DNA of 64,000 nt from Longimicrobium sp. GTDB taxonomy: Bacteria > Gemmatimonadota > Gemmatimonadetes > Longimicrobiales > Longimicrobiaceae. The notes under the pieces are model-generated. The model was not told the DNA's origin. It did not search any database and worked only from the letters and a program-made list of their open reading frames with translations. The DNA lies in the NCBI GenBank assembly GCA_036377595.1, contig DASUYB010000108.1:62001-126000 (forward strand), read 5' to 3'. Below, one piece after another: positions 1 to 54,740 of this stretch. The position numbers and the translations under genes were made by a program. Position 1 is the stretch's first letter. Each line of letters opens with the position of its first letter.

Positions 1-3000
1 GAACTCCCATACCGACGCGTCGAACGAGAACGGCGTCTTCTGCAGCACGCGGTCGCCCGCGTCCAGCGGGAAGGCGTCCTGCATCCACGCCATGTGGTTG
101 GCCAGCGCGCGGTGCGGAACTCCCACCGCCTTGGGCGCGCCCGTCGACCCCGAGGTGAAGATCGCGTAGACGAGCGACTCGGGATGGATCTCCATCTCCA
201 GGTCGCTCGCGTCTTCCGCGCCCGCGTCTTCGGCGTCCACGTCCACCACGCGCGCGCCGGTCCCGGAGGCGAGATGCGCGGTGGCCGAGCCGGCCAGGAC
301 GACGGCGGCGCCCGCGCCGGCCAGCATCTGCGCCACACGCGCGGCGGGGTAGCCGGGGTCGACGGGAACGTAGGCGCCGCCCGCCTTCATCACCGCGTAC
401 AGCGCCGCCACCATGGCGGCCGAGCGCTCCATCAGCACCGCCACGCGCGACTCGGGCCCCACGCCCAGCGCGCGGAGGCGGCGGGCCAGGCGGTTGGCGC
501 GCGCGTTCAGCTCCGCGTACGTCCACCGCATCCCGTCGTGCGACACGACGGCGAGCGCGTCCGGCGTGGTGGCAGCCTGCGCCTCGAACCAGCGGTGGAC
601 TGGCCCGGCGGGGAGCTCGGCGTCCGTCCGGTTCCACGCCCCGGTGACGAGCGCGGCCTCGTCGGCATCGGCCGGCGCGGGGGCGGAGATGGCGGCGTCG
701 GGATCGGCCAGGAGCGCGCCGAGGATCCGCGCGTAGCCGTCGGCCAGGCGCGCGGCGGTGTCGTGGTCGAAGATCTCCGTGCTGTACGAAGCCGCGCCCA
801 CGATCCCCGACGCGGCTTCGGCCAGCTCGAAGGTCAGCTCGAACTCGGCCGCGTACGGCACCGGCTCGCCGGGAAGCACGGCCTCGCCATCCTCGCCCTC
901 CCTTTCCGCGGCGGCGGGGGCGCTCCCGTCGCCCTGCAGGAGGAAGGTGACGTTGAAGACGGGGGGATGGCTGAGCGTGCGCTCCACCCCCAGCGCGTCC
1001 ACCAGCCGCTGGAAGGGCACGTCCTGGTGCGCGTACGCGTCGAGCGAGGCGCGCCGCACCCGCGCCACCGCCTCGCGGAAGCTGGGGTCGCCGGAGAGGT
1101 CGGCGCGCAGCGCCAGGCCGTTGACGAAGATGCCGATCAGCCCCTCGGTCTCCTCGCGCGTGCGGCCGGCCACCTGCGTGCCCACCACCACGTCGTCCTG
1201 GCCCGACAGGCGCGCCATCAGCACGTCGAAGGCGGCCAGCAGCACCATGAACAGCGTGGCGCCCTCGCGCCGCGCCAGCTCGCGGGCGGACTCCACCACG
1301 CAGGCAGGGAGATGGAACCAGCGGCGGGCGCCGGCGTGGGTGCGCGCGGCGGGGCGTGGACGGTCGGCCGGGAGGTCGAGCACGGCGGGGGCGCCGTCCA
1401 GCGCGCGCCGCCAGAACTCCACCTGTGCGTCCAGCACGCCGCTCTCCAGCCAGCGCCGCTGCCACGCCGCGAAGTCGGCGTACTGCACCGGCAGCTCGGG
1501 AAGCGGCGACGGCTCGCCGCGCAGGAAGGCGCCGTACAGCGCGCGCAGCTCGCGCTCCAGCACGCGCGCCGACCACCCGTCGAAGGCGATGTGGTGCACC
1601 GTCACCAGCAGCACCGAGGCATCGCCCAGCCGCAGCAGGCGCGCGCGCAGCAGCGGCCCGCGCTCCAGGTCGAAGTGCCCGGCCGCCGCGCGCTGGGCCG
1701 CGTCGATCACGGCACGCGCCTGCTGGCCGGGAGAGCGATCGCGCAGCTCGTCCACGGCGAGATCGACCGCGAAGGGCGGCCGGACCTCCTGCACGGCGCC
1801 GTGCTCGCCCGCGCGGAAGACGGTGCGCAGCGCCTCGTGGCGGCGCACCACCTCGGCCAGCGCGCGCGCCAGCACCTCCGCGTCGGCATCCGCCTCGAAC
1901 GCCAGCGGGACGGCCACGCCGTACGCCAGCGCGCCGGGCGAGAGCGTCTCCATCAGCCAGAGCCGCTCCTGGCCGTAGGAGAGCGGGAGATCGGCGTCGC
2001 GCGGCGCGGGCTCCAGCGGCGGCGCGGCGGCGGCCGCGTCGCCGGCGAGGAGGAGGTCGACGCGCGCGGCCAGCTCGCGCAGGGTGGACGCCTCGAACAC
2101 GGCGCGCTGCGGCAGCTCCACGCCCAGCAGCGCCCGCACGCGCGCCACCATGCGCATGGCCAGCAGCGAGTGCCCGCCCAGCGTGAAGAAGGAATCGTCC
2201 GGCCCCACCCGCTTCACCCCCAGCACCTCGGCCCAGATCGCGCCCAGCACCTCCTCGGTGGGGGTGAGTGCCGCCGCCGCGGCCCCGGCCCCGGCCTCGG
2301 CGGCCGGCGCGGGGAGCGCGCGGCGGTCCACCTTGCCGTTGGAGGTGAGCGGGAGCGCGTCCAGGAAGACGAAGACGGAAGGCACCATGTACGAGGGGAG
2401 GCGGCCGCCGAGCAGCGCCTTCAGCTCCGCCGAGGTGACGCCCTCCGCCGCCACGATCCACGCCGTCAGCCGCCGGGCCTCGCCCGCGCCGCGCGCCTCC
2501 ACCACCGCGGCGCGCACCCCGGGGTGCGTGCACAGTGCCGCCTCGATCTCGCCCGGCTCGATGCGGAAGCCGCGCACCTTCACCTGCTGGTCGGCGCGGC
2601 CCAGCCACTCGAGTGCGAAAGTGCGAGGGTGCGAGGGTGCGAAAGTCGACTCAGCGCCGGGCGAGCTCTCCACCGGGTGGTTCAACTCTCGCACTTTCGC
2701 ACTTTCGCACTCTCGCACTTCCTTCCAGCGCGCGAGGTCGCCGGTGCGGTACAGTCGCGCGCCGGGGACGGGGGAGAAGGGGTCGGGGACGAAGGCCGCG
2801 GCGGTGACGCCGGGGCGGCCCAGGTAGCCGCGCGCCAGCAGGCCGCCCACGTACAGCTCGCCGCCCACGCCGGCGGGGACGAGCCGGAGCGCCGCGTCCA
2901 GCACGTACACGCTCCGCCCGGCGAACGCGCGCCCGATCGGCACCACGTCGGCCGCGAAGGCGTCGTCCACCTCGAAGGCGGTGCAGGTGATCACCGCCTC

Positions 3001-6000
3001 GGTGGGGCCGTAGCTGTTCAGCAGCCGCGCGCGTCCCGGCGCCGCCGCCCACGCGCGGGCCGCGTCGGCGCGCATGGCCTCGCCGCCGGGGACGACGATG
3101 CGCGCGGCGCTCTTCACCGCGTCGCGCGCGAGGGGATCGCCGACGAGCTGGTGCCAGTACTCCGTGGGGAGATTGAGGGTGGTGACGCGGTGCTCGCGGA
3201 CCAGCGCCGCCAGCTCGGCGGGCGAGGGGAGGTCGGCGCCGCGCACCACCATGCACGCTCCGGACGTCAGCGGCACCAGCACGTCCTCGAAGAGGACGTC
3301 GAAGCCCGGCGCGGCGAAGAAGAGCATCCGGTCGGCGGCGGTCAGGCCGTACGCCCGGGCCGCGGCCCGGCAGTGGCGCGCCAGCTCCGCGTGCTGCACG
3401 CCCACACCCTTGGGCCGCCCCGTGGAGCCGGAGGTGTAGACGACGTACGCCAGTGCCTCTCCCAGGATCTCCTCCGGGAGGGAGCCGGCCGGCTCGTCCC
3501 CGTCTCCGTCGCCCTCCACCGGGACGACGGGGAGCGCGAGCGAGGCGAGCGCCGGATGCACCTCGCCGTCCGTCACCAGCGCGGCGACGTCCGCGTCTTC
3601 CGCCATCCACCGCAGCCGCTCGCCGGGGACGGCGGGGTCCAGGGAGACGTAGACGCCGCCCGTCTTGAAAATGCCCAGCAGCGCCGCCGCCAGGGCGGGC
3701 GAGCGCTCGAGCGTCACCCCCACCCGCGTCGTGGGCCCCACGCCCAGCCCGCGCAGGCGGCGCGCGATGCGATCGGCCCGCGCGTCGAGCTCCGCGTACG
3801 TCCACCGCACGCCGCCGTCCGCGACCACGGCGAGCGCATCCGGCGCCGCCTTCACCCACGCCTCGAAGAGCCGGTGCGCCGCCACCTCGCCGTCGTCGTC
3901 CAGCGCGGGGCCGGCGCCGAGCGCCAGGAGCGCGCGCTCCTCGTCCGCCGCCAGCATGGGGAGCGCGCCCAGCGGAAGGTCGCCCGCGCGCGCCGCCATC
4001 GCCGCCAGAAGGGTGCGCAGGTGCCCGAGCATCCGCGCGGCCTCGTCGGCGGAGAAGCGGCCGGCGTCGTACGACAGCCGCAGCACCGGCGCCTCGCCGG
4101 GGAGCACCGCCAGGGAGAGGGGATAGTTGCCGCGCTCCACCACCTCGGCGGCCTCGCCGCCGCCCTCTTCGGCCGCCGTCTCCAGCGGGAAGTTCTCGAA
4201 GGCGTAGAGCGTCTCGAATAGCGGCCGGTCGGCGGGAAGGCCGCTCCAGCGCTGCACCTCGGCCAGCGGCGCGTGCTCGTGGGCCCGCGCCCCCGTCTGC
4301 CACGCCTGCAGCGCGCGCAGCCAGGGGACGATGGCATCGCCGGGCGAGACCTGGAGACGGACGGGGACGGTGTTGATGAACATCCCCACCATCTCCTCCA
4401 CCCCCTCCAGCTCGGCCGGGCGCCCGGAGACCACGCTGCCGAACACCACGTCGTCCGCGCCGGTGTAGCGCGAGAGGAGGACGCCCCACGCGCCCGCGAA
4501 GACGGTGTTCAGGGTGATTCCGCTCCGCCGCGCGAAGGCCTGCAGCGCGGCGGCCTCGTCGCGCTCCATCACCTGGTCCAGCTCGCCGAACGCGGTGATG
4601 GCGCGGCCGGACGGGCCGGAGCCCAGCGGCGCCGGCGGCTCGAAGCCGGCGAGCGCCGCGCGCCAGAACGCCTCGGCCGCGGCGGGGTCGCGCCCCTGCA
4701 GCCACGCCACGTAGTCGCGGAAGGGGCGGCGGCTGGGGAGGCGGGCCGGCGGGCCGCCGAGCGCCGCCTCGTACAGCGCGCCCACCTCGGCGTACACGCG
4801 GGGGAGCGACCACCCGTCCAGCAGCAGGTGGTGGAAGGTGAGGACGGTGCGCAGCTCGTCGGCGCCGGTGCGGATCAGCGCCAGGCGCAGGAGCGGCGCG
4901 CGCGCGGGGTCGAAGCCGCGCCGCAGGTCGTCCTCCGCGCGCGCGGCGAGCCGGGCGGCGCGCTCGGCCGCGGAGAGCGCGCTCCAGTCCAGCCGCTCGA
5001 CCGGCACGGCGGCCCGGCGCAGCACCACCTGCAGCGCCCGGCCGCCTTCCTCCACCACGAACGCGGTGCGCAGGATCTCGTGGCGGTCCACCACCGCCTG
5101 CCACGCCGCGGCGTACGCGTCGGCGTCGATGCCGCGCAGGGTGGCCGACACCTGCTCCACGTACATCCCCGACTCGGGCTCGGCGCGGGCGTGGAAGAGC
5201 ATCCCCTCCTGCAGCGGGGTGAGGGGATACACGTCCTCCACCTCGCGCGCCCCGCCGTACGCCGCCAGCAGCGCGTCCAGCCGCGCCTGGTCCAGCCCGG
5301 CGAGCGGGAAGTCGGCCGGCGTGGCCCGCGCGGCCGATGGCTGGTCCCCGCGCGAGGCGGCGACCAGCGCGCGCAGCGCGGCCAGGTACGCGTCCGCCAG
5401 CCGCTCGATCGTCGCGCGGTCGTGCACGGCGCGCGAGAAGGCCCAGCCGATGTGCAGCCGGCCGCCGCTGACCCAGGCGCTCACGTCCAGCAGGTGCGCG
5501 CGGCCGTTCCCCGGCGCGCGGTCGGGGCCGGGATTCTCCGCGGCGAAGGACCAGAACGCGTCGCCCTCGTTCCCCTCGCCCTGGTCGAATCTCCCGAGGT
5601 AGTTGAAGCTGATCCGGGGACGGGGAAGCGCCGCCAGTGACGCGCGCAGCTCCGGGTCGGGGCTCATCCAGCGCAGCACGCCGAAGCCGATCCCGCGGCC
5701 GGGGATGGCGCGCAGGGCGTCGCGCGCGGCGGCCAGCGCCGTCACCGCGCCGTCCGCGGCGGCGACCGGGAGGCGAACGGGGAAGAGGGTGGTGAACCAT
5801 CCCACCGTGCGGCTCAGGTCGACGCCCTCGAACAGCTCCTCGCGGCCGTGGCCCTCCATCTCCACCCACACCGCGCCGCGCCCTGTCCACGGCGCCAGCG
5901 CGCGGGCCAGCGCGGAGAGGAGCGCGTCGTTCACCTGCGTGCGGTGCGCGGCGGCCACGTCCTGCAGCAGCGCGCGCGTCTCCTCGGCGTCCAGCGTCAC

Positions 6001-9000
6001 GGCGAGCGTGTCGCGCTCGGCGGCGTTGTTGGCACCATCCGCCCGATCGACGGGGATCTCCTCCTCGCCCGGCGCGCCGGCGGCCTGCGCCAGCCACCAC
6101 GCGGCTTCGGCGCGCAGGGCATCGGAGGCGGCGTGGCGCTCCAGCTGCGCGGCCCACGCGCGGAACGAGGTCGTCTTCGGCGGCAGCCGCACCGGCCGGC
6201 CGGCGGCGAGCTGCGCGTACGCCGTCTCCAGGTCTTCCAGCAGCACGCGCCACGACACCACGTCCACCACCAGGTGGTGCGCGGCCAGCAGCACGCGGTC
6301 GGGCCCGTCGCCGCGCAGGAGCACGGCGCGCAGGAGCGGCCCCGACGCCAGGTCCAGGCCGCGCTCGGCGCGCACCTTGGCCTCCTCGCGCACGCTCGAT
6401 CGCTCGGATTCGGCGACGGCGGCGAGGTCCACCGTCTCCACCGGCACGGCCGCGTCCGGGGTGCCGGCCTGCGTCCATCCCTCGCCATCGCGGGTGAAGC
6501 GGAGGCGGAGCGCGTCGTGGTGCAGGGCCAGGCGGTGCAGCGCGCGCTCCAGCAGCACGGGGTCTACCGCGCCCGCGGCCTCCAGCACCATCGACAGGTT
6601 GAAGTGCGACGGGTCTTCGAGCGGATGGTCGAAGAACCAGCGCTGCACGGGCGTCAGCGGCGCCGGCCCGGTCACCGGCCCCTGCTCGGCGGCGGCCGCG
6701 GCGCCGCCCGCCACCGCCGCCAGTTCGGCCACGGTGGGGTGCTCGAACACCTGCCGCGGGGTGACGCGCACGCCCTCCCTGGCCGCGCGCGAGATCACCT
6801 GCAGCGACAGGATCGAGTCGCCGCCGAGCGCGAAGAAGTCGTCGTGCACGCCCACGCGCTCCACGCGCAGCACCGCCTCCCACACGAGCGCCAGCGTGGC
6901 CTCCACGGGCGTGCGCGGCGCCACGTACGCGTCGTCGGCGGCCGCGGCGGCGCCGGGCTCGGGAAGCGCGCGGCGGTCGACCTTGCCGTTGCGGGTGAGC
7001 GGCAGCGCGTCGAGGAACGCCCACGCCGCCGGCACCATGTAGTCGGGGAGATGCTCCAGCAGGTGCGCCCGCAGCTCCGCCGCGTCTACGCCGTGCGCCG
7101 CGACGATCCAGGCGACGAGGCGCTTTTCCTCCCCCTCGCCACGCGGGAGGACCACGGCCTCGCGGACGGCGGGATGGGCCAGGAGCGCGGACTCGATCTC
7201 CCCCAGCTCGATGCGGAAGCCGCGGATCTTCACCTGGTCGTCCGCGCGGCCCAGGAACTCGAGTGCGAGAGTGCGAGGGTGCGAAGGTGCGAAAGTGGTT
7301 TCGTCACGCGATGAGTCGCTTTCGCACTCTCGCACTCTCGCACTTTCGCACTCTCGCACCTCCACCCACCGCGCGAGATCGCCCGAGCGATACAGCCGCG
7401 CGCCGGGATTCGCGGAGAAGGGATCGGCGACGAAGCGCTGTGTCGTCAGCTCGGGACGGTGGAGATACCCCCGCGCCACGCCGGCACCGCCCACGTACAT
7501 CTCCCCGACGACTCCAGTGGGGACGATCTCCCCGTCCTCATCCAGGAGATGAACGGAGAGATCGGGGATGGGGATACCGATGGGAGACGACGATCCATCG
7601 ACCGTATCCTCCGCCCGGATCACGCGATAGGTGACGTGGACGGTGGTCTCGGTGATGCCGTACATGTTGACGAGCCGGGGCGATTCATCCCCCCGCCGCT
7701 CCACCCAGCCGCGCAGCGTGGCCGGATCGAGCGCCTCGCCCCCGAAGATCACGTACCGCAGCGCCAGGCCGGCAGACGCCGCGGGCGGGCTTTCGTCCGA
7801 CGTGCCGGCGGGCGTTTGGCCTCGATTATAGATCCTTCGGCCTGCCACCGACTGTGCGGACGCGGCTACGGTCTGGCCGGCCTCAGGATGACGTCGGGTG
7901 GGGAGCTCCGGTGGTTGAACCCCGAGGGCCGGCGTGGACTCGGGCTCGGCAGGACCAGTCGAGGCCCCAGTCCGCGAAGGCGGACTTTGTGTAGTTGTTG
8001 CAGCGAATTCATTCGCCCTCTCCTCGTCCGCGCGGATGAGCTGGCGGAAGGCGCTCGGCGTCTGGTTCAGCACCGTGACGCGCTCCGTCTCCAGCAGCGC
8101 GTGGAACTCCTCCGGGAGGCGCGAGACGTCGAAGGGGACGACGACCAGGCGCGCGCCGTACAGCAACGCGCCCCAGATCTCCCAGACCGAGAAGTCGAAC
8201 GCGTAGGAGTGGAAGAGTGTCCACACGTCGTCGGAGGTGAAACCGAACCACGCGTCCGTCGCGCTGAAGAGGCGCACGACGTTGGCGTGCGTGACCTGCA
8301 CTCCCTTCGGCTTCCCCGTAGATCCGGACGTGTAGATGACGTACGCCAGCGAGTCGGGGGAGATGGCGATCTCCGGCGCGTCGGCCGGCTCCGCGGCGAT
8401 CGCGTCGGCATCGCACTGCAGGCAGACGACGGTCGTTCCGGCGGGGAGATGGCTCCGCAGCTCGGAGGTCGTCACCACGATCTCCGTCCCCGAATCCTCC
8501 AGCATGTACGCCAGGCGGTCTTCGGGATACGCGGGATCGAGCGGGAGATAGCCCGCGCCGGCCTTGAGGATGGCCAGGATGCCGACGACGGTCTCGATGG
8601 ATCGCTCGACGGAGAGGCCGACGAGCGTGTCCGGCCGCGCGCCCAGCTTCACCAGCCGGTGGGCGATGCGGTTGGCGCGCGCGTCCAACTCCGCGTAGGT
8701 GACGGACTCGCCGCGGAACGTCAGCGCGACGGCGTCCGGCGTGCGCGCCGCCTGCTCCGCGAACAGCGCGGGGAGCGTCTTCGCGACGGGGAACGACGCC
8801 GTGGCCGAGCCGGCGGCGGTGAGCGCGGCGCGCTCGGCGGCGTCCAGCGGCGTCAGCGCGCGGGTGGCGGCGGCGTCGCCGGAGACGATCTGCTCCAGCA
8901 CGCGGAGGTAGCCGGCCAGCAGCGCGCGGACGCGCTCGGGATCCAGCCGGCGCGCGTCGTAGGTGGCGGTGGCGCGCATCCCGCCCGCCGCCGGAGCGAC

Positions 9001-10182
9001 GACGAGCGACAGCGGGTAGTTGGTGCGCTCCGCCGCGCGCGCGCCGGTGACGGTGAAGGGTGGCTCCGCGCCGTCGCCCCCGCCGCCGAGCGGGTAGTTC
9101 TCGTAGACGAAGATGGTCTCGAAGAGCGGCGCCTCGCCCGGCAGCCCGCTCCAGGCGCGCACCCGCGCCAGCGGCGACAGCTCGTGGTCGCGCGCGAGGG
9201 CCTGCTCGTCCTGCTGCACGCGCAGCCACTCGCCGATGGACGCGTCCGCGGGGACGGCGACGCGCACGGGGACGGTGTTGATGAACAGCCCCACCATCTC
9301 CTCCACCCCCGGCACCTCGGGCGGCCGCCCGGAGACGGTGGTGCCGAAGACGACCTCGCGGCGGCCGGTGTAGCGGGCCAGCACCGCCGCCCACGCCGCC
9401 TGCGCCAGCGTGCTGGCGGTGACGCGATGCCGGCGCGCCGCCGCGGCCAGCGCGGCGGCCAGGTCGGCGGAGATGGGGAGCGTCTCCTGGCCGTGCTCCT
9501 CGGCGGGGCGGCCGGCGCGCGCGGGGGCGCGGTCGAGCGGCAGCGGGGTGGGGCCGTCGAGCCCGCCCAGCCGCTCGCGCCAGAACGCCTCGGCCGCGGC
9601 CTCGTCGCGCTCCGTCACCCACGTCACGTAGTCGCGGAAGAGCGGGCGGCGCGGGAGCACGGCGTCGCGTCCCTCGCGCGCGGCCTGGTATGCGGCTGTG
9701 AAGTCGGCGAAGACCAGCGCCATCGACCACCCGTCCAGCAGCAGGTGGTGCGACGACATGAGGAACCGCCACTCGCGCGCGCCCACGCGGGCCAGCGCCA
9801 GGCGCACCAGCGGCGCGCGGCGCAGCTCCCATCCTTCGGCGCGGTCGTCGTCGAGCAGCCCGGCCCAGCGCGCGTCACGCTCGGCGGGCGGCAGGTCGCT
9901 CCAGTCTTCCACGCGCACCGGCACGGCGGCCTCGCGGAAGACGATCTGCATGGGCTGCTTCACCCCCTCCCACACGAAACCGGTGCGCAGGATGGGGTGG
10001 CGGTCCACCACCGCCTGCCACGCGCGCGCGAACGCGTCCGGGTGGACGTCGCCCTCCAGCGTGAGCACCACCTGCTCCGCGTACGCGTCCGCGTCCGCCG
10101 CGGGCGAGTGCAGGGCGTGGAAGAGCATCCCCTGCTGGAGGGGAGTGAGCGGATACAGGTCCTCTACGTTCTTGCGATTCAT
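1..10182 (-). CDS. Nonribosomal peptide synthetase, C-A(Thr)-PCP-E-C-A-PCP-C-A (3' part missing)
   Basis: The gene begins at ATG 10182 and stays open to the left edge (3394 codons), so its end lies outside the window. Domains in order: C1 (SHHLLLDGWS near residue 144), A1 (TSGSTG near 617), PCP1 (GGDSI near 1120), epimerization domain (HHLVVDVVSW near 1300, EGHGRE, TVGWFT), C2 (FHHLLLDGWS near 1783), A2 (near 2250), PCP2 (GGHSL near 2668), C3 (VHHIAFDGWS near 2863) and A3, cut just after core A4 (FSFDASVWEF). The A1 pocket code read by eye is DFWNIGMVH, the classical threonine code; with the E domain it should supply D-Thr. The A2 code is DVENVGSIT; Glu at position 239 suggests a basic residue (inference). 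A1 carries two in-frame insertions (residues about 724-805 and 940-973) and A2 one (2487-2523), all made of repeat DNA. It is the last gene of the run visible here, and no thioesterase is reached. Confidence 0.95.
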   Translation of the reverse strand, partial: MNRKNVEDLYPLTPLQQGMLFHALHSPAADADAYAEQVVLTLEGDVHPDAFARAWQAVVDRHPILRTGFVWEGVKQPMQIVFREAAVPVRVEDWSDLPPAERDARWAGLLDDDRAEGWELRRAPLVRLALARVGAREWRFLMSSHHLLLDGWSMALVFADFTAAYQAAREGRDAVLPRRPLFRDYVTWVTERDEAAAEAFWRERLGGLDGPTPLPLDRAPARAGRPAEEHGQETLPISADLAAALAAAARRHRVTASTLAQAAWAAVLARYTGRREVVFGTTVSGRPPEVPGVEEMVGLFINTVPVRVAVPADASIGEWLRVQQDEQALARDHELSPLARVRAWSGLPGEAPLFETIFVYENYPLGGGGDGAEPPFTVTGARAAERTNYPLSLVVAPAAGGMRATATYDARRLDPERVRALLAGYLRVLEQIVSGDAAATRALTPLDAAERAALTAAGSATASFPVAKTLPALFAEQAARTPDAVALTFRGESVTYAELDARANRIAHRLVKLGARPDTLVGLSVERSIETVVGILAILKAGAGYLPLDPAYPEDRLAYMLEDSGTEIVVTTSELRSHLPAGTTVVCLQCDADAIAAEPADAPEIAISPDSLAYVIYTSGSTGKPKGVQVTHANVVRLFSATDAWFGFTSDDVWTLFHSYAFDFSVWEIWGALLYGARLVVVPFDVSRLPEEFHALLETERVTVLNQTPSAFRQLIRADEERANEFAATTTQSPPSRTGASTGPAEPESTPALGVQPPELPTRRHPEAGQTVAASAQSVAGRRIYNRGQTPAGTSDESPPAASAGLALRYVIFGGEALDPATLRGWVERRGDESPRLVNMYGITETTVHVTYRVIRAEDTVDGSSSPIGIPIPDLSVHLLDEDGEIVPTGVVGEMYVGGAGVARGYLHRPELTTQRFVADPFSANPGARLYRSGDLARWVEVRECESARVRECESDSSRDETTFAPSHPRTLALEFLGRADDQVKIRGFRIELGEIESALLAHPAVREAVVLPRGEGEEKRLVAWIVAAHGVDAAELRAHLLEHLPDYMVPAAWAFLDALPLTRNGKVDRRALPEPGAAAAADDAYVAPRTPVEATLALVWEAVLRVERVGVHDDFFALGGDSILSLQVISRAAREGVRVTPRQVFEHPTVAELAAVAGGAAAAAEQGPVTGPAPLTPVQRWFFDHPLEDPSHFNLSMVLEAAGAVDPVLLERALHRLALHHDALRLRFTRDGEGWTQAGTPDAAVPVETVDLAAVAESERSSVREEAKVRAERGLDLASGPLLRAVLLRGDGPDRVLLAAHHLVVDVVSWRVLLEDLETAYAQLAAGRPVRLPPKTTSFRAWAAQLERHAASDALRAEAAWWLAQAAGAPGEEEIPVDRADGANNAAERDTLAVTLDAEETRALLQDVAAAHRTQVNDALLSALARALAPWTGRGAVWVEMEGHGREELFEGVDLSRTVGWFTTLFPVRLPVAAADGAVTALAAARDALRAIPGRGIGFGVLRWMSPDPELRASLAALPRPRISFNYLGRFDQGEGNEGDAFWSFAAENPGPDRAPGNGRAHLLDVSAWVSGGRLHIGWAFSRAVHDRATIERLADAYLAALRALVAASRGDQPSAARATPADFPLAGLDQARLDALLAAYGGAREVEDVYPLTPLQEGMLFHARAEPESGMYVEQVSATLRGIDADAYAAAWQAVVDRHEILRTAFVVEEGGRALQVVLRRAAVPVERLDWSALSAAERAARLAARAEDDLRRGFDPARAPLLRLALIRTGADELRTVLTFHHLLLDGWSLPRVYAEVGALYEAALGGPPARLPSRRPFRDYVAWLQGRDPAAAEAFWRAALAGFEPPAPLGSGPSGRAITAFGELDQVMERDEAAALQAFARRSGITLNTVFAGAWGVLLSRYTGADDVVFGSVVSGRPAELEGVEEMVGMFINTVPVRLQVSPGDAIVPWLRALQAWQTGARAHEHAPLAEVQRWSGLPADRPLFETLYAFENFPLETAAEEGGGEAAEVVERGNYPLSLAVLPGEAPVLRLSYDAGRFSADEAARMLGHLRTLLAAMAARAGDLPLGALPMLAADEERALLALGAGPALDDDGEVAAHRLFEAWVKAAPDALAVVADGGVRWTYAELDARADRIARRLRGLGVGPTTRVGVTLERSPALAAALLGIFKTGGVYVSLDPAVPGERLRWMAEDADVAALVTDGEVHPALASLALPVVPVEGDGDGDEPAGSLPEEILGEALAYVVYTSGSTGRPKGVGVQHAELARHCRAAARAYGLTAADRMLFFAAPGFDVLFEDVLVPLTSGACMVVRGADLPSPAELAALVREHRVTTLNLPTEYWHQLVGDPLARDAVKSAARIVVPGGEAMRADAARAWAAAPGRARLLNSYGPTEAVITCTAFEVDDAFAADVVPIGRAFAGRSVYVLDAALRLVPAGVGGELYVGGLLARGYLGRPGVTAAAFVPDPFSPVPGARLYRTGDLARWKEVRECESAKVRELNHPVESSPGAESTFAPSHPRTFALEWLGRADQQVKVRGFRIEPGEIEAALCTHPGVRAAVVEARGAGEARRLTAWIVAAEGVTSAELKALLGGRLPSYMVPSVFVFLDALPLTSNGKVDRRALPAPAAEAGAGAAAAALTPTEEVLGAIWAEVLGVKRVGPDDSFFTLGGHSLLAMRMVARVRALLGVELPQRAVFEASTLRELAARVDLLLAGDAAAAAPPLEPAPRDADLPLSYGQERLWLMETLSPGALAYGVAVPLAFEADADAEVLARALAEVVRRHEALRTVFRAGEHGAVQEVRPPFAVDLAVDELRDRSPGQQARAVIDAAQRAAAGHFDLERGPLLRARLLRLGDASVLLVTVHHIAFDGWSARVLERELRALYGAFLRGEPSPLPELPVQYADFAAWQRRWLESGVLDAQVEFWRRALDGAPAVLDLPADRPRPAARTHAGARRWFHLPACVVESARELARREGATLFMVLLAAFDVLMARLSGQDDVVVGTQVAGRTREETEGLIGIFVNGLALRADLSGDPSFREAVARVRRASLDAYAHQDVPFQRLVDALGVERTLSHPPVFNVTFLLQGDGSAPAAAEREGEDGEAVLPGEPVPYAAEFELTFELAEAASGIVGAASYSTEIFDHDTAARLADGYARILGALLADPDAAISAPAPADADEAALVTGAWNRTDAELPAGPVHRWFEAQAATTPDALAVVSHDGMRWTYAELNARANRLARRLRALGVGPESRVAVLMERSAAMVAALYAVMKAGGAYVPVDPGYPAARVAQMLAGAGAAVVLAGSATAHLASGTGARVVDVDAEDAGAEDASDLEMEIHPESLVYAIFTSGSTGAPKAVGVPHRALANHMAWMQDAFPLDAGDRVLQKTPFSFDASVWEF
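2614..2724 (-). repeat. Octamer-hairpin insert in A7-A8 loop, site 1
   Basis: These 111 bases (37 codons) sit exactly between the Trp codon ending YRTGDLARW and the Leu codon of LEWLGRADQQ. They consist of GTGCGAAA/GTGCGAGG-type octamers, a unique spacer (2647-2684) and inverted octamers. The stretch has no stop codon in the gene frame and replaces the usual five-residue turn (such as RADGN). Confidence 0.9.
7264..7365 (-). repeat. Octamer-hairpin insert in A7-A8 loop, site 2
   Basis: These 102 bases (34 codons) sit in the Thr-activating A domain between YRSGDLARW and LEFLGRADDQ. Left-arm octamers are separated by a spacer (GTTTCGTCACGCGATGAGTC) from inverted right-arm octamers. The encoded peptide contains the motif RECESARVRECES. 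Confidence 0.9.
7768..8013 (-). repeat. Intergenic-type repeat inserted in frame in the Thr A domain
   Basis: About 246 bases (about 82 codons) interrupt the A domain between the helix ending LIRADEERA and the strand LALRYVIFGGEA. That is between specificity positions 278 and 299, near residues 724-805. The encoded peptide is rich in Pro, Ser, Thr and Ala and has no A-domain character. The DNA looks like an intergenic element: bases 7968-8017 match 50032-50081 at 40 of 50 positions without gaps, and the left half holds an AGATCCTTCGG...CCTCAGGATGACG block of the kind common between genes in such genomes (recalled, not searched). Boundaries are approximate. Confidence 0.8.
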
Positions 10183-10339: not shown

Positions 10340-13300
10340 TTACGATCCCAGCGCCGACAGGTCGCCGCCGAGCTCCTCGAGCAGCGCGGCCAGCGCCTCC
10401 TCGCGCAACTGGTCGATGCGGGTGGCGAGGTCGCGGAGGCGCGGCGTCTCGAACACGGCGCGCAGCGGCAGCTCCACGTCCAGCCGCTCCAGCACGCCGG
10501 TCGTCATCCGCATCGCCATCAGCGAGTGCGCGCCCAGGGCGAAGAACGAGTGCCCGGCACCCACGCCCCTGATCCCCAGCAGTTCCTCCCAGAGCGCCGC
10601 GAGCGTCTGCTCGGTGGGCGTCTCGGGCGCGAGGTACGCCTCCGCCTCGGCGGCCGCGTCCGGGTCGGGCTCGGGGAGCGCGCGGCGGTCCACCTTGCCG
10701 CTGGTGGTGAGCGGGAACGCGTCCAGCCCCACCACCACGGCGGGCACCATGTAATCTGGGAGCCGCTCCGCCGCGTGCGCCCGCAGCGCCGCCGCGTCGG
10801 CCGACGACGGCGTGACGTACGCCACCAGCCGCCGCGCGTCACCCTCGCCGCGCACCACGGCCACCGCGTCGGCGACGGCGGGGTGGCGGCGGAGCACGCT
10901 CTCCACCTCGCCCGGCTCGATGCGGAAGCCGCGCAGCTTCACCTGCGTGTCGAGGCGGCCGAGGTATTCGAGTGCGAAAGTGCGAGAGTGCGAGAGTGCG
11001 AAAGTGGTTTCGTCCTCGCGCGAATTTCCGTCACTTTCGCACTTTCGCACCTTCGCACTTTCGCACTTCCACCGAACCCGGTCGCCGGTGCGATACATCC
11101 GCGCGCCCGGCCGGCCCGCGAAGGGGTCGGTGATGAAGCGCTCGGCGGTGAGCGCCGGACGGTTCGCGTATCCCCGCGCCACGCCGGGGCCGCCCAGGTA
11201 CAGCTCACCGGGGATGCCCACTGGCGCCGGACGCAGCCGCGCGTCGAGCACGTAGGCCCGCATGTCGGCCACCGGGCGGCCGATGGGCGGGCGCGGGTCG
11301 CCGCGGCACACGTCCTCGCAGGTGGCGTAGACGGTAGCCTCGGTGGGGCCGTACAGGTTGCGGACGGTGCGCACCGTTCCCGTCGCTAGCAGCGCGTCCA
11401 CCAGGTCGCCGGGGAGCGCCTCGCCGCCCAGGTTCAGCGCGCGCAGCGTCGGCGGAAGCGCGCCGCGGCGCAGCAGCTCGGCCGCGGCGGCGGGCGCCAT
11501 GAACGCCGACCGCACCGCCTCGGCGTCCACCAACTCCAGCGCGTTCTCCACCAGCACCAGCGCGCCGCCGGCGCAGAGGGTGCCGAACACCTCGGCCACG
11601 GAGACGTCGAAGGAGAAGGAGGTCGAGCCCAGCACCGCCGCCCGCTCCTCGTCCGGCATCACCTCGTCTAGCCACGACAGCAGGGTGGAGAGGCCCTGGT
11701 GCTCCACCATTACCCCCTTCGGCGTGCCCGTCGATCCCGAGGTGTAGAGGACGTAGGCGAGCGACGCGGGGTCGATCTCCATCCCCAGATCCTCCGCCGA
11801 TTCTGCCTCGATCTCCGCCGCCTGCAGGTCGAGGGAGATCAGGGGGATGCCGGAGGGGATGACATCGGCCAGCGCGGAGACGGTCACCACCGCGGCCGCC
11901 CGGGCATCGCCCACGATCGCCGCCAGCCGCGCGGGGGGATACGCGGGGTCGAGGGGGACGTACGCCGCGCCAGCCTTCATCACCCCCAGCACCGCGGCGA
12001 CGAGGTCCGGCGTGCGCTCCAGGCACACGCCCACCGTCGCGCCCGGCCGTGCGCCGAGCGCCGCCAGCCGCCGGGCGATGCGGTTGGCGCGCGCGTTCAG
12101 CTCCCCGCGCGTCACCACCCGCCCGGCGAAGCGGATCGCCGGCGCGTCCCGGTCCGCCGCGACGCGCATCTCCCAGCGCGCGGGGAGGGAGACAAAGGGG
12201 TGGTCGCGCCGCGACTCGGCGTTCCACCCGTGCACCACGCGGCGCCGCTCCTCCGCGTCCATCAGCGGCAGGTCGGCGAGCGGGCGGTCGGGCGCGGCGG
12301 CGGCGGCTTCCAGCAGCGTGGCCAGCTGCCGGGCGAAGCGCTCCATCGTGGCCGCGTCGAAGAGGTCGGTGGCGTACTCCAGCACTCCGCTGACGCCACC
12401 GTCGTCCATCTCCAGCGTGGCCATCATCAGGTCCCACTTGGCCGCCCCGGTGTCGATGGCCGCCAGCGGGCTCTCCTCCGAGAGGGGCCGCGAGCCGAGC
12501 AGCTTCTCCATCCCCCCCGCCGTGCTCTCGTGCGCCGCCACCGTGGCGTGGTGGAAGTAGAGCGCCTGGAAGAGCGGGTGCCGGCTGGGGTCGCGCTCCA
12601 CGCCCAGCTCCTCCACCAGCTTCTCGAACGGCAGCTCCTGGTGCGCGTCGGCGTCGAGCACCGCCTGACGGGCCGTGCGGATCGCCTGGCGGAAGGTCGG
12701 CGCGCCCTCCAGCCGCAGCCGCAGCGCCGCGGTGTTGGCAAAGAACCCAAGCACCTGCTCCAGCTCCGCGCGGTTGCGGTTGGCCAGGATGGTGCCCACC
12801 ACCAGGTCGTTCTGCCCCGCCCACCGCGCCAGCAGCGCCGCGAAGCCGGCCAGGATCACCATGTTCAGCGATGCCGCCTCCGCCCGCCCCACGCGCCGCA
12901 ACGCCGCCGCCAGCGCGGGGGTGAGCGCGAAGCCGTGCAGCCGCCCGCGGAAGCTCTGCTGCGGCGGGCGCGGCCGGTCGGTCGGGAGATCGAGGACGGG
13001 CGCGTCCGCCAGCGCCCCGCGCCAGTAGGCCACCTGCCGCTCCAGCTCTGCGCCCGCGAGCCAGCCGCGCTGCCAGACGGCGTAGTCGGCGTAGCGGAGC
13101 GGGAGATCGGGGAGCGCCGGCTCGCGCCCGGCCGCGAAGTGGCCGTACAGCTCGTCGATCTCGCGCCCCAGCGCCTGGTAGCTCCACCCGTCGGCGGCGA
13201 TGTGGTGGACGGTGGTCACCAGCGCGCAGCGCTCGTCCGACACCCGCAGCAGCGCCACGCGCAGGAGCGGCCCCGCGGCCAGGTCGAACGGCCGCGCGGC

Positions 13301-13746: not shown

Positions 13747-16700
13747 TCAGATCTCCTCGAGCTGCGCCAGGAGGTCGTCCAGCTCCTCCTGGTCCATCCG
13801 CGCCGCGGGGAAGTCGTCGACGGTGTAGCCCCCCTCCCGCGGCGCGCGGGCCCGCTCGACCAGCGCGCGCAGGGCGGCGCCGTAAGCCTCGGCGAGCCGC
13901 TCCATCGTCTCCGCGCGGAAGACGCGGGCGCCGTAGAAGATGCCCATCCGCAGCACGCCGTCGGCGACGGAGCCCTCCACGGAGATGCGGTGCGTGCGCG
14001 GCTGCGACGGGTCGCGCGTGGGGCCGATCGGCCCCGCGGCGGGGACGAGGAGCGCGCTGGAATCGGGTGCGGCGGCGCCGGCCTGGCCCATGTAGTTGAA
14101 GCTGACCTCCGCCGCGGGACGCGCCGCCAGCTCCGCCGCCGCGTCACCCGCGAGCCAGCGCAGCAGGCCGTGGCCCATGCCGCGCTCGGGGACCGCCCGC
14201 AGCGCCTCCTTCACCCCGTTCAGCGTCGCGGCGGCATCTCCCGTGGCCTGCAGGTGGATGGGGAAGACGGAGGTGAACCAGCCCACCGTACGCGAGACGT
14301 CCACGTCGTCGAACAGGTCCTCGCGCCCGTGCCCCTCGACGTCGACGAGGAGCGATTCGCGGCCGCTCCAGGCGCGGAAGGCCTCGGCCAGCGCGGCGAG
14401 GAGCGCGTCGTTCACCTGCGTGCCGAAGGCGGCGGGCACCTCCTCCAGCAGCGCGCGCGTCTCCGCCACCGTGAGCTCCGCGACGGCGACGGCGGTCCCC
14501 GCCTCGTCGTCCGGCGCGCCGGGGACGTCCGCGGGGAGGGGATCGGCGGCGGCGGGGAGGGCGCCCAGCCAGAACGGGAGCTGCGCCAGCGTCTCCGGGG
14601 CGCGGGCGCGCTCGTCCAGGCGGCGCGCCCACTCGCGGAACGCCGTCGTCTTCGGCGGCAGCCGCACCTCGCCGCCGCCGGCGAGCTGCCGGTACGCCGC
14701 CTCCAGGTCCTCCGCCAGCACCGGGAGCGAGACGGCATCCACCACCAGGTGGTGCGCCGCGACGAGGATCCGCTGCGGGCGATCGGGCCCGAGGTCGAAG
14801 AGCGCGACGCGGAAGAGCGGGCCCGCGGCCAGGTCCATCCCCGTCTGCACCGCCGCCGCGCGCGCCTCCATCTCCATCTCCAACTGCTCCTGGGGGATGG
14901 AGGATAGGTCGAAGCGGTCGAAGGCGGCCGGCTCCGGGACGGCGGTCGATGCCGTCCATCCCCCGTCCCCGCGGACGAAGCGAGTGCGCAGCGCGTCGTG
15001 GTGCGCGGCGACGGCGTCCGCGGCGCGCTGGAGGAGATGGGGATCGAGCCGCCCGCGCGCCTCCAGCGCCATCCCCATGTTCCAGTGCTCGGGACGGGGG
15101 ATGCCGCGCTCCAGGATCCAGCGCTGCGTGGGGGTGAGCGGCGCGTCGCCGGTGACGGGGCCTTGCTCGGCATCGATGGGCGTCGCCGTCTCGGCCGCGG
15201 CGGCCAGCTCGGCGATGGTCTGGTGCTGGAACACCTGCCGCAGGGCGATGCGCACGCCCTCGCGCGCCGCGCGCACGATCACCTGGATGGAGAGGATCGA
15301 ATCTCCCCCCAGCTCGAAGAAGTTGTCGTGCACGCCGACGGACTCACGCCCGAGCACCTGCGCCCAGACGCGCGCCAGCACCTCCTCGGCGCGGGTGCGC
15401 GGCGCCGTCTGGTCGCCCGCCGCCTCGGCGATCTCGGGCGCGGGGAGGGCGCGGCGGTCCAGCTTGCCGTTGGGCGTGCGCGGCAGGGCGGGGAGGAGCA
15501 CCAGCGCCGAGGGCACCATGTACTCCGGCATCCCGCTGCGCAGCGCCGCCCGCAGCCCATCCGCGGTGACGCCGTCGTCCGCCGCGACGTACGCGACCAG
15601 CCGCCGCGATCCCGGCGCGGGCTCGTGGACGATCGCCGCCGCCTCGCGCACGCCGGGGAGCGCGAGGAGGGCCGTCTCCACCTCGCCCAGCTCGATGCGG
15701 AAGCCGCGGATCTTCACCTGGCGGTCGGCGCGGCCGATGAACTCGAGTGCGAAAGTGCGAGAGTGCGAGAGTGCGAGAGTGGTTTCGCCTGGCTCCGCCT
15801 CACTTTCGCACTTTCGCACCTTCGCACTTTCGCACGTCCAGCGCGCCACGTCGCCCGTGCGGTACAGGCGCGCGCCGGGGACGCCGCCGAACGGGTCGGG
15901 GACGAACTTCTCGGCAGTGAGCGCCGGGCGGCCCAGGTAGCCGCGGGCGACGCCGATGCCGCCCACGCACACCTCGCCGGGAATGCCGGCGGGGAGCGGG
16001 CGCAGCGCGGGGTCGAGCACGTACGTCTGGAGACCGGGCCAGGGGCGGCCGATGGAGATGCGCCCCTCGGCGGCCGGATTGATCGACAGGGTCGCGCCGA
16101 CCGTGGTCTCCGTCGGCCCGTAGCCGTTCACGAAGCGGCGGCCGGTCCCCCAGCGGCGCACCACCTCCGGCCCCACCGCCTCGCCGGTGGAGACGACGGT
16201 GCGCAGGTCGGGGAGCCCGTCGGGCGGGAGCGTGGCCAGGACGGAGGGGCCCAGGGTGACGACGTTCACCCGCTCGCGCTCCAGGAACTCCGCCAGCAGC
16301 TCGCCGGCCGCCGCCTCGTCGCGCGGGGCGATGACCAGCGTGGCGCCGGAGAGGATGGTGAACACGTCCCACAGCGACGCGTCGAACGAGAACGAGGCGA
16401 ACTGGAGGACGCGCGCGCCAGGGTGCGCGCCCAGCACCTCGGCCTCCATCGCCGCCAGCGACGCGATCCCCCGGTGCGTCAGCACCACGCCCTTGGGCAG
16501 CCCGGTGGAGCCCGAGGTGTAGATCACGTACGCCGCGTTCTCCACCTCGTCCGCGCCCTCCAGGTTTCCGTCATCCCCCTCCATCACGTCGGGGTGGATC
16601 ACGGGGATGCCGGCGGGGATGGCGTCGTCGCCGCGCTCGGCGATCACCACGCGCGCGCCCGAATCCTCCAGCATGTACCGCCGCCGCTCGGGCGGATACG

Positions 16701-26500: not shown

Positions 26501-29500
26501 GAACGAGGAGAGATCGACGACGGGGAGGGGGATGGAGAGCGCAGGGAGGATCTCCTGCACCGGCCCGCCGTCGCCCGTGGGGAAGACGGTGCGCAGCGCC
26601 TCGTGCCGCGCAACCACGCCGTCGAGCGCGCGGCGGAGCGCGTCCGCGTCCAGCTCGCCGCGCAGGCGCAGGACGACGGGGACGTTGTACGCGGCCGGCG
26701 CGGCGCCCAGCGTCTCCAGGAACCAGAAGCGCTGCTGCGCGAACGAGAGCGGGATGGTGCGCCCGCGGCCGGCGGGGACGAGCGGCGGCACGCGGTGCTC
26801 CTCGCCCGCGCGGGCGGCCACGGCGCGCTCCGCCAGCCCCGCGACGGTGGGCGCCTCGAACAGCGCGCGCAGCGGCAGGTCGATGCCGAACGCCTCGCGG
26901 ATGCGGGCGATGACCTGCGTGGCGCGCAGCGAGTGCCCGCCCAGCGCGAAGAAATCGTCGTGCACCCCGGCGTAGACGCCGAGCACGCGCTCCCACACCG
27001 CGGCGATGACCTCCTCGGCCGGGGTGCGCGGCGGCACCTTGCCGGCGGCCAGCGCGGCCGGATCGGGCTCGGGGAGCGAGCGGCGGTCCACCTTGCCGCT
27101 GGGCGTGAGCGGCATCCGCTCCAGCACCACCCACGCGGCCGGCACCATGTACTCGGGGAGATGCGCCGCCACGTGCGTCCGCAGCTCCGCGTGCGTCGGC
27201 GCCGCGCCGTCGACGGGGACCACGTAGCCGACCAGCCGCCGCTCGGCACCCTCGCCGCGCGCGGCCACGGCGGCCTGCTTGACGGACGAATGCGTACCGA
27301 GCACGGCCTCCACCTCGCCCGGCTCCACGCGGAAGCCGCGGATCTTCACCTGGAAGTCGGTGCGGCCGACGTACTCGAGTGCGAAAGTGCGAGAGTGCGA
27401 AGGTGCGAAAGTGGTTTCGTCGCGCGATGAGTCGCTTTCGCACTCTCGCACTCTCGCACTTTCGCACATCCATCTCACCCGGTCGCCCGTGCGGTACAGT
27501 CGCGCGCCGGGGAGAGCGGAGAACGGGTCGGGGACGAACTTCTCCGCGGTGAGCGCGGGGCGGCCGAGGTAGCCGCGCGCCAGGCAGTCGCCGCCCGCGA
27601 ACAGCTCGCCGGGGACGCCGAGCGGCACGGGCTCCATCCGCGCGTCCAGCACGTACAGCCGCGTATTGGCGATGGGCGCGCCGATCGGCGGCAGCGCGGG
27701 CCAATCTCCCGCATCCCCCGCCACCACGTGGGCGGAGACGACGTGCGTCTCCGACGGGCCGTACTGGTTCTCCAGCGCGGCCTGCGGGTTCGCGCGGAAG
27801 AAGGCGCGCAGCTGCGGCGTCGATCGCAGCGCCTCGCCCGCGGTGATCACCTCGCGCAGGTGGGGGAGATGTGCCGAATCTCCCGCCGTTTCCGCGAGAT
27901 TCTGGAGCGCCGCGAAGGGGAGGAAGAGCCGCTCGATCCGCTCGTCGCGGAGATGGGCGATGAGGCGCTCGGCGTCGCGCCGGGTCTCGTCATCGATCAG
28001 CACGAGCGTGCCGCCCGCCGCCCAGGTGCTGAAGATCTCCTGGAACGAGACGTCGAAGGAGAGGGACGCGAATTGCAGCGTGCGCGCGGGCGCGTCATCC
28101 CCCCACCGGTCGATCTGCCAGCGCACCATGTTCGCCAGCGCGCGGTGCGGCAGCGCGGCACCCTTCGGCTTCCCCGTCGACCCCGAGGTGTAGAGCACGT
28201 AGCCCAGCTGCCCGGGGTCGATGGAGATGGAGGGAGATGCGGACGATTCGCGGGAGATGGCGTCCGCCTCCGCGTCCAGCCGCACGACGGTCGTCCCCGC
28301 CACCGACGGCAGCCGCGCGGCCACGTCCGAGGTGGTGATGACGACGGAGGCGCGGCTGTCTTCCAGCATGTACGCCACGCGGTCGGCGGGATAGTTGGGA
28401 TCGACCGCGACGTACGCCCCGCCCGCCTTCAGCACCGCGAGGACGGCGATCGGCATCTCCAGCGACCGCTCCAGGCAGATCGCCACCCGCGCGTCCGCCC
28501 TCACGCCGAGGCCGATCAGCCGGTGCGCGAGGCGGTTCGCGCGCGACTCCGTCTCCGCGTACGTCAGCGTCTCTCCGCCGAACTCCAGCGCGGCGACGTC
28601 CGGCGCGCGCGCCGCCCGCGCCGCCACCATCTCCACCACGCTCGTGGAGATGAATTCCGGGCGGTCGGTGGCGTTGAAGGCGGAGACGACCTGCGCCCGC
28701 TCGTCCGCGGAGATGATCGGGAGCGCGGAGACGGGCGCGCCGGGAGACGTCGCCGCCGCGCGGAGGAGCGCGTCCAGGTGCCCGGCCAGCCGCGCGATCG
28801 TGTCTTCGTCCCACAGCGCCGTCGCGTACTCCGCCCATCCCCCGAAGCCGTCCTCCGTCTCCCACAGGCCGACGGTGAGGTCGAAGCGCGACGTCGCCAG
28901 GTCGGGCGCGGTCAGGCGCACCTCCGCGCCCGCCAGCTCGACGTCGCCCTCGGCGGCGTTCTGCAGCGTCAGCATCACCTGGAAGAGCGGCGAGTGGCTC
29001 AGCGAGCGCTCCACCCCCAGCGCGTCCACCAGCTTCTCGAACGGCACGTCCTGGTGGGCGAAGGCGTCCACCGTCGTCGCTCGCACCCGCGCCAGCAGCT
29101 CGCCGAACGGCGGGTCGCCCGCGAGGTCGGCGCGCAGGGGGAGCGTGTTGCCGAAGAAGCCGATCAGCTCCTCCAGCTCCGCGCGCCCGCGGCTGGCCAC
29201 CGGCGTGCCCACCACCACGTCGTCCTGCCCCGACCAGCGGTGCAGCACGGCGGCGAAGGCGGCCAGCAGCACCATGAACGGCGTCGCCCCCTCGCCCGCC
29301 CGCGCGGCGAGCGTCCGCACCGCATCGCCCGCCTCGGCGGAGAGCTCGAAGCGGTACGCGGCGCCGGCCAGGTCCTGCACGGCCGGGCGCGGGCGGTCGG
29401 TCGGGAGATCGAGCGTGGCCGGCGCGCCGCGCAGCCGCTCGCGCCAGAAGGCCAGCTGCCGCTCCAGCTCGTCGCCCACCAGCCATCCGCGCTGCCACGC

Positions 29501-33424: not shown

Positions 33425-33723
33425 GTGGATGTTCCCCGGCGTCGGTGAGAACGCTTGGGACCTTGTTGGTGAGTGCTGGTGCTCAGTGCCGGGTGCGACC
33501 GGCTCCGCGTCGCGCGCACTGGCGTGTCGTCCTGCACCTGCGTGCCGGGCTTTCAGTCCCGGTTCCTGAATGGGCTGCCCGAGCCCTGGCGTTCGGGTCC
33601 AGCGGGATCTCTCACGCTCTTCGTGCAGAGATCCGGTGCATCACGGCCACAAACCGGCGGCTGACGCCGCAGCAACAACCACGGGAAGCCCCGCAAACCG
33701 CGCGAGGCTGTTCGGCTCGGTCG
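33425..33723. other. Intergenic gap with repeat remnants
   Basis: No gene is visible between the two multi-module NRPS genes. Bases 33470-33500 hold degenerate GTGCTCAGTGCC heptamer-like units. Bases 33595-33640 hold an imperfect inverted repeat (GGGATCTCTCACGCTCTTCG with TGCAGAGATCC). The remainder (ACAAACCGGCGGCTGACGCC and onward) I cannot assign. Confidence 0.5.
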
Positions 33724-49742: not shown

Positions 49743-50031
49743 TGCTTCTGCCGGACCGCGGATGGACAGGCCCGCAACCTGCGGGGGGCGATGCGTCACC
49801 GGAGACGGGCACTGGAACCGGAGGTTGGCAGATGCACTGCGCCAAGGGTGGGATGATCCTGGTGTCGGGCGGCTGACGGACGGACCGGCAGGCATGCGAA
49901 GGGCGGGGGAGGCGTCATGCCGCTCCCGCCCTTCGCGCGCCCGGGATCGTCTCGGGCCAGCGTGCGAACGGATCGTGACGGCGCGCGAGAGCCCGTTGCG
50001 AGCACCGTCCTCTCGTTCGCACCGATGCCGG

Positions 50032-50081
50032 CAGTCCACGCAGGTGGACTTCGTGTCGTTGTTGCCGCGGCTTCACCCGCC
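50032..50081 (+). repeat. Dispersed hairpin repeat, intergenic copy
   Basis: These 50 bases align without gaps to 7968-8017 (inside the Thr A domain), 40 of 50 identical. The first part is a hairpin: AGTCCAC-GCAG-GTGGACT here and AGTCCGC-GAAG-GCGGACT there, so one stem pair changed on both sides. The shared block GTGT-GTTGTTGC follows. Confidence 0.8.
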
Positions 50082-50186
50082 TCTCGGCGCCGATGCGCCA
50101 CGGTGGGTGCGGGGATGTGCGCATCCGCTCCGCACGCTAATCTGTCGTCCTCCTCACTGCCGATGTCCACACGAATGGAGATGCCG

Positions 50187-54630: not shown

Positions 54631-54650
54631 GAGAATCCCCTAAAAGAAAG

Positions 54651-54722
54651 TCTCACGCAGAGTTAGCAGAGTCAGCAGAGAACTGCAGTTTTACTGCTGA
54701 CTCTGCTAACTCTGCGTGAGGC
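54651..54722. terminator. Long inverted repeat between convergent genes
   Basis: The arms CTCACGCAGAGTTAGCAGAG...CTCTGCTAACTCTGCGTGAG (about 27 bp, nearly perfect) surround a short A/T-rich loop, with an A-rich left flank and T-rich right flank. It should terminate transcription from both sides. The internal GCAGAGTT/AGCAGAGTC near-repeat resembles the period of the other hairpin families. Confidence 0.8.
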
Positions 54723-54740
54723 CATCTTTTGCTTTTTCGA

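Follow-up and report, generated by a model that had tools for sequence, protein, structure and literature searches.

A nonribosomal peptide synthetase (NRPS) gene at the left end of the window, i.e., the whole 64,000-nucleotide stretch of Longimicrobium sp. DNA analyzed here, encodes a threonine adenylation (A) domain in which an insert of 84 residues lies between specificity positions 278 and 299. This raises the question of where such DNA came from and how it came to be read as protein near the substrate-binding pocket of an apparently intact enzyme. The features considered are as follows:

Positions 1 to 10182, minus strand: NRPS open reading frame, running off the left end of the window with no stop (9042 codons in the contig).
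Positions 7462 to 8763, minus strand: AMP-binding core of the insert-carrying threonine A domain.
Positions 7768 to 8019, minus strand: in-frame insert of 84 residues, flanked by ..LIRADEE and LALRYVIFGGEAL.. of the threonine A domain.
Positions 7819 to 7904, plus strand: element A, an interspersed repeat distinct from element B (about 200 copies; core ATAGATCCTTCGGCCTGC...GGCCTCAGGATGACGTC; minus-strand reading RRHPEAGQTVAASAQSVAGRRIYN).
Positions 7966 to 8019, plus strand: element B, a double-hairpin REP-like repeat (minus-strand reading RANEFAATTTQSPPSRTG).
Positions 7969 to 7986, plus strand: hairpin 1 of element B (AGTCCGC-GAAG-GCGGACT).
Positions 7997 to 8000, plus strand: GTTG foot of element B, two bases 5' of hairpin 2.
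Positions 8003 to 8016, plus strand: hairpin 2 of element B (GCGAA-TTCA-TTCGC).
Positions 50030 to 50083, plus strand: the other copy of element B found in the window, described as intergenic in the first-pass annotation, with none of its frames showing a clear coding signal.

The insert, earlier placed at 7768-8017 and estimated at about 82 residues, was measured to run from 8019 to 7768, such that 84 residues separate RADEE from LALRY. The minus-strand NRPS frame is open throughout the insert. In the nearest paralog with an empty site (C108:56907), the same loop comprises 9 residues, corresponding to a net gain of 75 residues near the pocket. As had been claimed, the threonine code is intact, with residues D, F, W and then N found before the insert and I, G, M, V, and H after it; DFWNIGMVH is a threonine code, with the specificity positions numbered by the GrsA convention. 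The domain matched PF00501 with a score of 328.5 bits over profile positions 1-384, while its fold matches include the solved structures of the 4-Cl-Thr domain THR1 (5n9x) and of ObiF1 (6n8e). In an AlphaFold model of the A domain built with a 26-row alignment, most of the domain was predicted with pLDDT values above 90, with insert residues 274-339 falling below 50, as did residues 481-505 (VRECES...), which correspond to a third repeat described below. Judging from this model, the effect of the insert is most likely an extra disordered surface loop on an enzyme that still works. Production and activity of the NRPS have probably been retained, with the insert forming a floppy addition to its surface. 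Some 120 AMP-binding domain matches, mostly from NRPSs, were counted in this 7.2-Mb genome, with a similar number being found in a relative, G003.

Genome-wide searches (7.2 Mb in 208 contigs) revealed the insert to contain two unrelated repeat families, each dispersed through the genome. The first-pass annotation had assigned the AGATCCTTCGG...CCTCAGGATGACG block and a 50-base motif to one and the same second repeat family; instead, the former corresponds to element A and the latter to element B. The genome-wide motif search that it had called for returned at least 150 copies of B and about 200 copies of A. The ungapped match of 40/50 bases that it reported between positions 7968-8017 and 50032-50081 is exact, and a chance origin was rejected, given that the best of 60 first-order Markov simulations of the window reached 30/50.

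Element B consists of two hairpins linked by a short single-stranded stretch. When 135 distinct copies were compared, 99.6% of the stem cells were paired, with both stems presenting strong covariation, namely 105 double-change cells versus 24 in shuffled data and 0-1 when the partners were slid. The paired change noted earlier between the two copies in the window (GTCCGC/GCGGAC versus GTCCAC/GTGGAC) is real. The covariation belongs, however, to the B family as a whole, such that the further proposal of selection acting in this particular copy on structure instead of protein could not be sustained; with so few coding copies of B, and these so alike, it cannot be told what constraint they are under. 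A foot reading GTAG (72/150) or GTTG (67/150, including the window copy) was found two bases 5' of hairpin 2 in 139 of the 150 aligned copies. Close pairs of B were in the divergent '-+' order in 17/17 cases, with 16 of the 17 being spaced by 39-104 bp, mostly 85-104 bp, and one by 250 bp. Being a high-copy pairing palindrome that presents a GTAG-like foot, is mostly extragenic and forms inverted doublets of fixed order, B has the hallmarks of REPs and REPINs and, as such, resembles a REP or REP-like repeat of this Gemmatimonadota lineage. A partial match to B, comprising the second hairpin only (23 bits), lies at positions 33657-33682 of the window, between two NRPS frames.

A likely mobilizer of element B was found beside it. 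Inverted copies of B flank both Y1_Tnp genes of this genome on both sides, an arrangement seen at 23 of 27 loci in the family versus 0 of 3 loci in other families of the order. The Y1 protein retains the HUH pair (HxH) and the Tyr-x3-Gln motif, and its nearest solved relatives are IS200/IS605 transposases. The Y1 proteins scored here pass the NCBIfam IS200/IS605 model NF033573 (55.8-68.9, cut-off 55). With the REP_Tyr_transpos model NF047646 (cut-off 80), the proteins from loci L031 and L104 scored 21.9 and 22.4 bits, respectively, and that from L032 gave no reported match, such that the term RAYT does not apply in its strict sense. The family-wide stem covariation is what would be expected of hairpin DNA recognized by an IS200-like Y1 transposase. 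Moreover, the number of B copies, at least 126 in 10/10 members of the genus, 9-141 across five further genera belonging to the family and 0-2 in the remaining ones, roughly tracks the presence of Y1 genes. The exceptions are two genomes in which no Y1 gene was found, one that holds 31 copies and is 72% complete and another, a genus member, that is 86% complete. In AVDCRST_MAG68 (Gemmatimonadetes), the Y1 flanks are identical to those of a genus member. Weaker B-like double hairpins also flank related Y1 genes in Chloroflexi and other Gemmatimonadetes contigs (L250, L251, L297, and L301), and the pairing of repeat and transposase may thus be widespread.

To define where B is read as protein, the flanks of 195 B sites in this genome were scored with a codon model trained on the long frames of the same genome. 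Clear coding on both sides was detected at four of these (the window copy, C108:49413, C65:48795, and C65:19266), with two more lying near gene starts. All four correspond to NRPS A domains, are found in the same strand and frame, and translate as ANEFA(A/V)TTT.S.PS.T; because most copies of B contain no stop in four of the six frames, this common frame is suggestive only. For the window copy, the coding score was good to one side but close to zero to the other, where element A and its surroundings lie, with the NRPS frame resuming beyond. The earlier description of the insert DNA as not NRPS-like holds for the codon signal next to element A but not for GC content, which at 68% is no different from the values with which it was compared (66-68%). 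B occupies the same codon position of the same loop in three threonine A domains, whereas at C65:19266, it is found in a different A domain, ahead of core motif A4. This loop is short in four other threonine A domains of this genome and in the threonine A domains of genus relatives. In relative G003, an inverted pair of B copies lies in frame within an NRPS condensation (C) domain, upstream of an intact HHLISDGW motif. B is, then, found inside a gene with the frame kept and is missing from homologs, as befits an in-frame intragenic repeat. The conclusion of the first-pass annotation that a mostly intergenic repeat has become coding sequence within a catalytic domain stands, with the code and core motifs being intact and the other threonine loops short. 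The two sites at what look like gene starts are L195 and L178. At L195:1502-1551, it is in frame directly after a signal peptide-like N terminus of a DUF1800 protein, and at L178:1540-1600, it is placed at the beginning of an OpuAC-type transporter gene, where, read in frame from a putative start codon, it would supply much of the signal peptide (VVREGGLRVVVAAISIALLALTAPLSAQ). Sites L230 and L232, where some coding signal was detected, were rejected upon reading, as no convincing gene was found.

The explanation favored here, and held to be likely, is that the insert is REP-like mobile-element DNA that has become a protein loop in a threonine A domain. From the gene arrangement, the Y1 transposase would most likely cut and join B as single-stranded hairpin DNA, thereby copying or moving it. 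One or more copies of B would have entered the threonine A domain loop between the helix following position 278 and the strand carrying residue 299, and would have survived there by being free of stops in four of six frames and keeping the frame. In so doing, B would have added a hydrophilic, disordered stretch to a loop already variable in length. Element A, the second family, probably landed beside B later and in this one domain.

Element A was sought across the genome using its 18-base core with up to 2 mismatches, yielding 105 forward and 95 reverse matches, versus 0 for a reversed-pattern control. Its fold is no better than that of shuffled DNA, and the notion of A as a stable hairpin was rejected on this basis; in these searches, no mobilizer of A was found. 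A single mobile composite of A and B is not favored, as a top-scoring copy of B was found within 400 bp at 5 of the 100 A sites listed, 3 of which share the order and strand seen in the window, and as the other two filled threonine domains contain B without A. At only 2 of the 52 A sites sampled was a readable frame accompanied by non-negative coding signal on both sides; the two belong to NRPS A domains and score weakly. The second readable copy lies in the A domain at C65:51919-51987, where the coding score is weak on one side. Thirteen of the 100 listed copies of A fall within 300 bases of the start of a contig, as if A were part of a longer repeat whose near-identical copies interrupt the assembly.

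It is conceivable, with odds just short of even, that B entered one threonine A domain a single time and then reached its paralogs as modules were duplicated or genes converted, a usual course among NRPS modules, with only the founding event involving transposition. The identical codon position, strand, and frame in the three filled threonine A domains, two of which lie in one NRPS gene of contig C108, speak for such copying. On the other hand, B is 95-98% identical across the three filled domains, while the DNA immediately outside falls to 62-73%, and of the closest threonine paralogs, T49068 and T56907, which are mostly 87-97% identical across the domain, only T49068 contains B. The combination of high identity within B and low identity outside fits either repeated entry or conversion confined to B. 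Regardless of which occurred, the appearance of B at a second A domain position (C65:19266) and in the C domain of another species calls for more than one entry; the three different positions occupied (the present loop, the loop ahead of A4, and the C domain in G003) require a minimum of three separate entries. The three filled threonine domains could still owe their shared B to conversion or to the copying of modules, without each having received it by insertion. The first-pass annotation had considered that a homologous insert in other threonine A domains would argue against a repeat origin. Such inserts do exist within this genome, three domains being filled, yet since those of the sister domains carry the same mobile repeat, they support a repeat origin instead.

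The A domain loops of this genome hold not two but three repeat families, with the third being distributed in the window as follows:

Positions 2611-2720, 7262-7362, 10961-11067, 15745-15835, 27368-27467, and 30709-30739: third repeat (GTGCGAAAGTGCGAGAG), an inverted pair around a short spacer.

This repeat is coding within many A domains, in the loop ahead of EFLGRADxQVKxRGF (EVRECESAKVRE...TFAPSHPRTFALE), and 30 of 42 sampled sites were in clear NRPS coding sequence. The presence of three families in such loops, the intact stems of the coding B copies, and the location of the insert between two specificity positions could be taken to mean that the hairpin is useful to the host, be it as RNA, through ribosome pausing or mRNA protection, or as DNA, through recombination between A domains. 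This is deemed unlikely, given that no position-specific conservation beyond the family consensus was seen in B, that sister threonine domains without B have intact motifs, and that B is mostly extragenic. Only a slim chance is likewise given to the broader idea that several repeat families, when landing in coding sequence, favor the NRPSs of this lineage, and that identical hairpins lying between A domain specificity positions would seed recombination that swaps substrate-binding subdomains and so alters the peptides made.

That the insertion has inactivated the A domain, leaving the gene to decay, might be suspected from the net addition of 75 residues near the pocket. This is, however, quite improbable, considering the intact core motifs and threonine code, the open 9042-codon frame, the several independent in-frame cases, and a fold predicted with high confidence. 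Misjoining of a repeat into the gene during assembly, as might be imagined for a draft genome of 208 contigs in which listed copies of A lie near contig starts (13/100), can be practically dismissed, as the frame is kept both here, within a 230-kb contig, and at three further loci distributed over two contigs, and the inserts differ from one another in flanks and in length.

The proposed origin of the insert from a REP-like element has precedents. Short palindromic high-copy REPs of the GTAG and CGTC families have been described in frame inside known genes (PMC3733652), with REP copies also being found inside tnpA_REP genes (PMC6006769). Loops or linkers are considered the places where such intragenic REPs are tolerated, and repeat clusters encoding 43-82 residues were reported (PMC3733652). 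The present case is alike in that a palindromic high-copy repeat lies within a gene with the frame kept, and differs in the lineage and the repeat involved, in that NRPS A and C domains are the targets, and in that the same A domain loop is filled in three paralogs. Rickettsia palindromic elements (RPEs) are similarly interspersed palindromes inserted in frame in genes likely to encode functional proteins (PMC10969869; PMC3733652); by contrast, most copies of B are extragenic, with 4/195 showing clear two-sided coding. Moreover, B is linked with a Y1 transposase, while for the CGTC repeats, including RPE-4 and RPE-6, the lack of a dedicated one was reported (PMC3733652). As for the transposase loci, REPtrons and TIRtrons are Y1 genes flanked by REPs or double palindromic TIRs, and double inverted repeats joining a degenerate GTAG unit to another stem-loop have been described (PMC3733652), while class 3 TnpA_Y1 is IS-like yet REPtron-like, with a CnGA foot (PMC6006769). 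In all of these, as at the present loci, inverted hairpins surround an HUH-Y1 gene and belong to a repeat that is present in high copy and forms doublets. The foot of B is, however, GTAG or GTTG rather than the CnGA of class 3, a group compared here by its description.

REPINs are defined by inverted REP doublets acting as the repeated unit. The inverted doublet is the trait shared with REPINs (PMC3116915), with B differing in its spacer of 39-104 bp in 16/17 pairs (250 bp in one) and in having two hairpins per unit. In-frame insertion of REPs or RPEs in loops is thus already known, and the case in the window is such an insertion in an unusual and recurrent target. The literature searched gave no account of in-frame REP-like insertion in NRPS domains, and one may exist elsewhere. 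What is new is the lineage, the NRPS target, the fact that paralogous modules are hit repeatedly, and the association of a double-hairpin repeat with a Y1 gene in Gemmatimonadota, such that in-frame REP insertion is extended to this phylum and, within modular peptide synthetases, to the catalytic core. With many paralogous modules in one genome supplying natural filled and empty sites, it becomes testable how much added loop can be tolerated by an A or C domain and whether REP-like elements help in A domain reshuffling. Finally, a separate inverted repeat was noted at positions 54642-54730 of the window, with 37-nt arms that are 92% complementary and separated by 15 nt.
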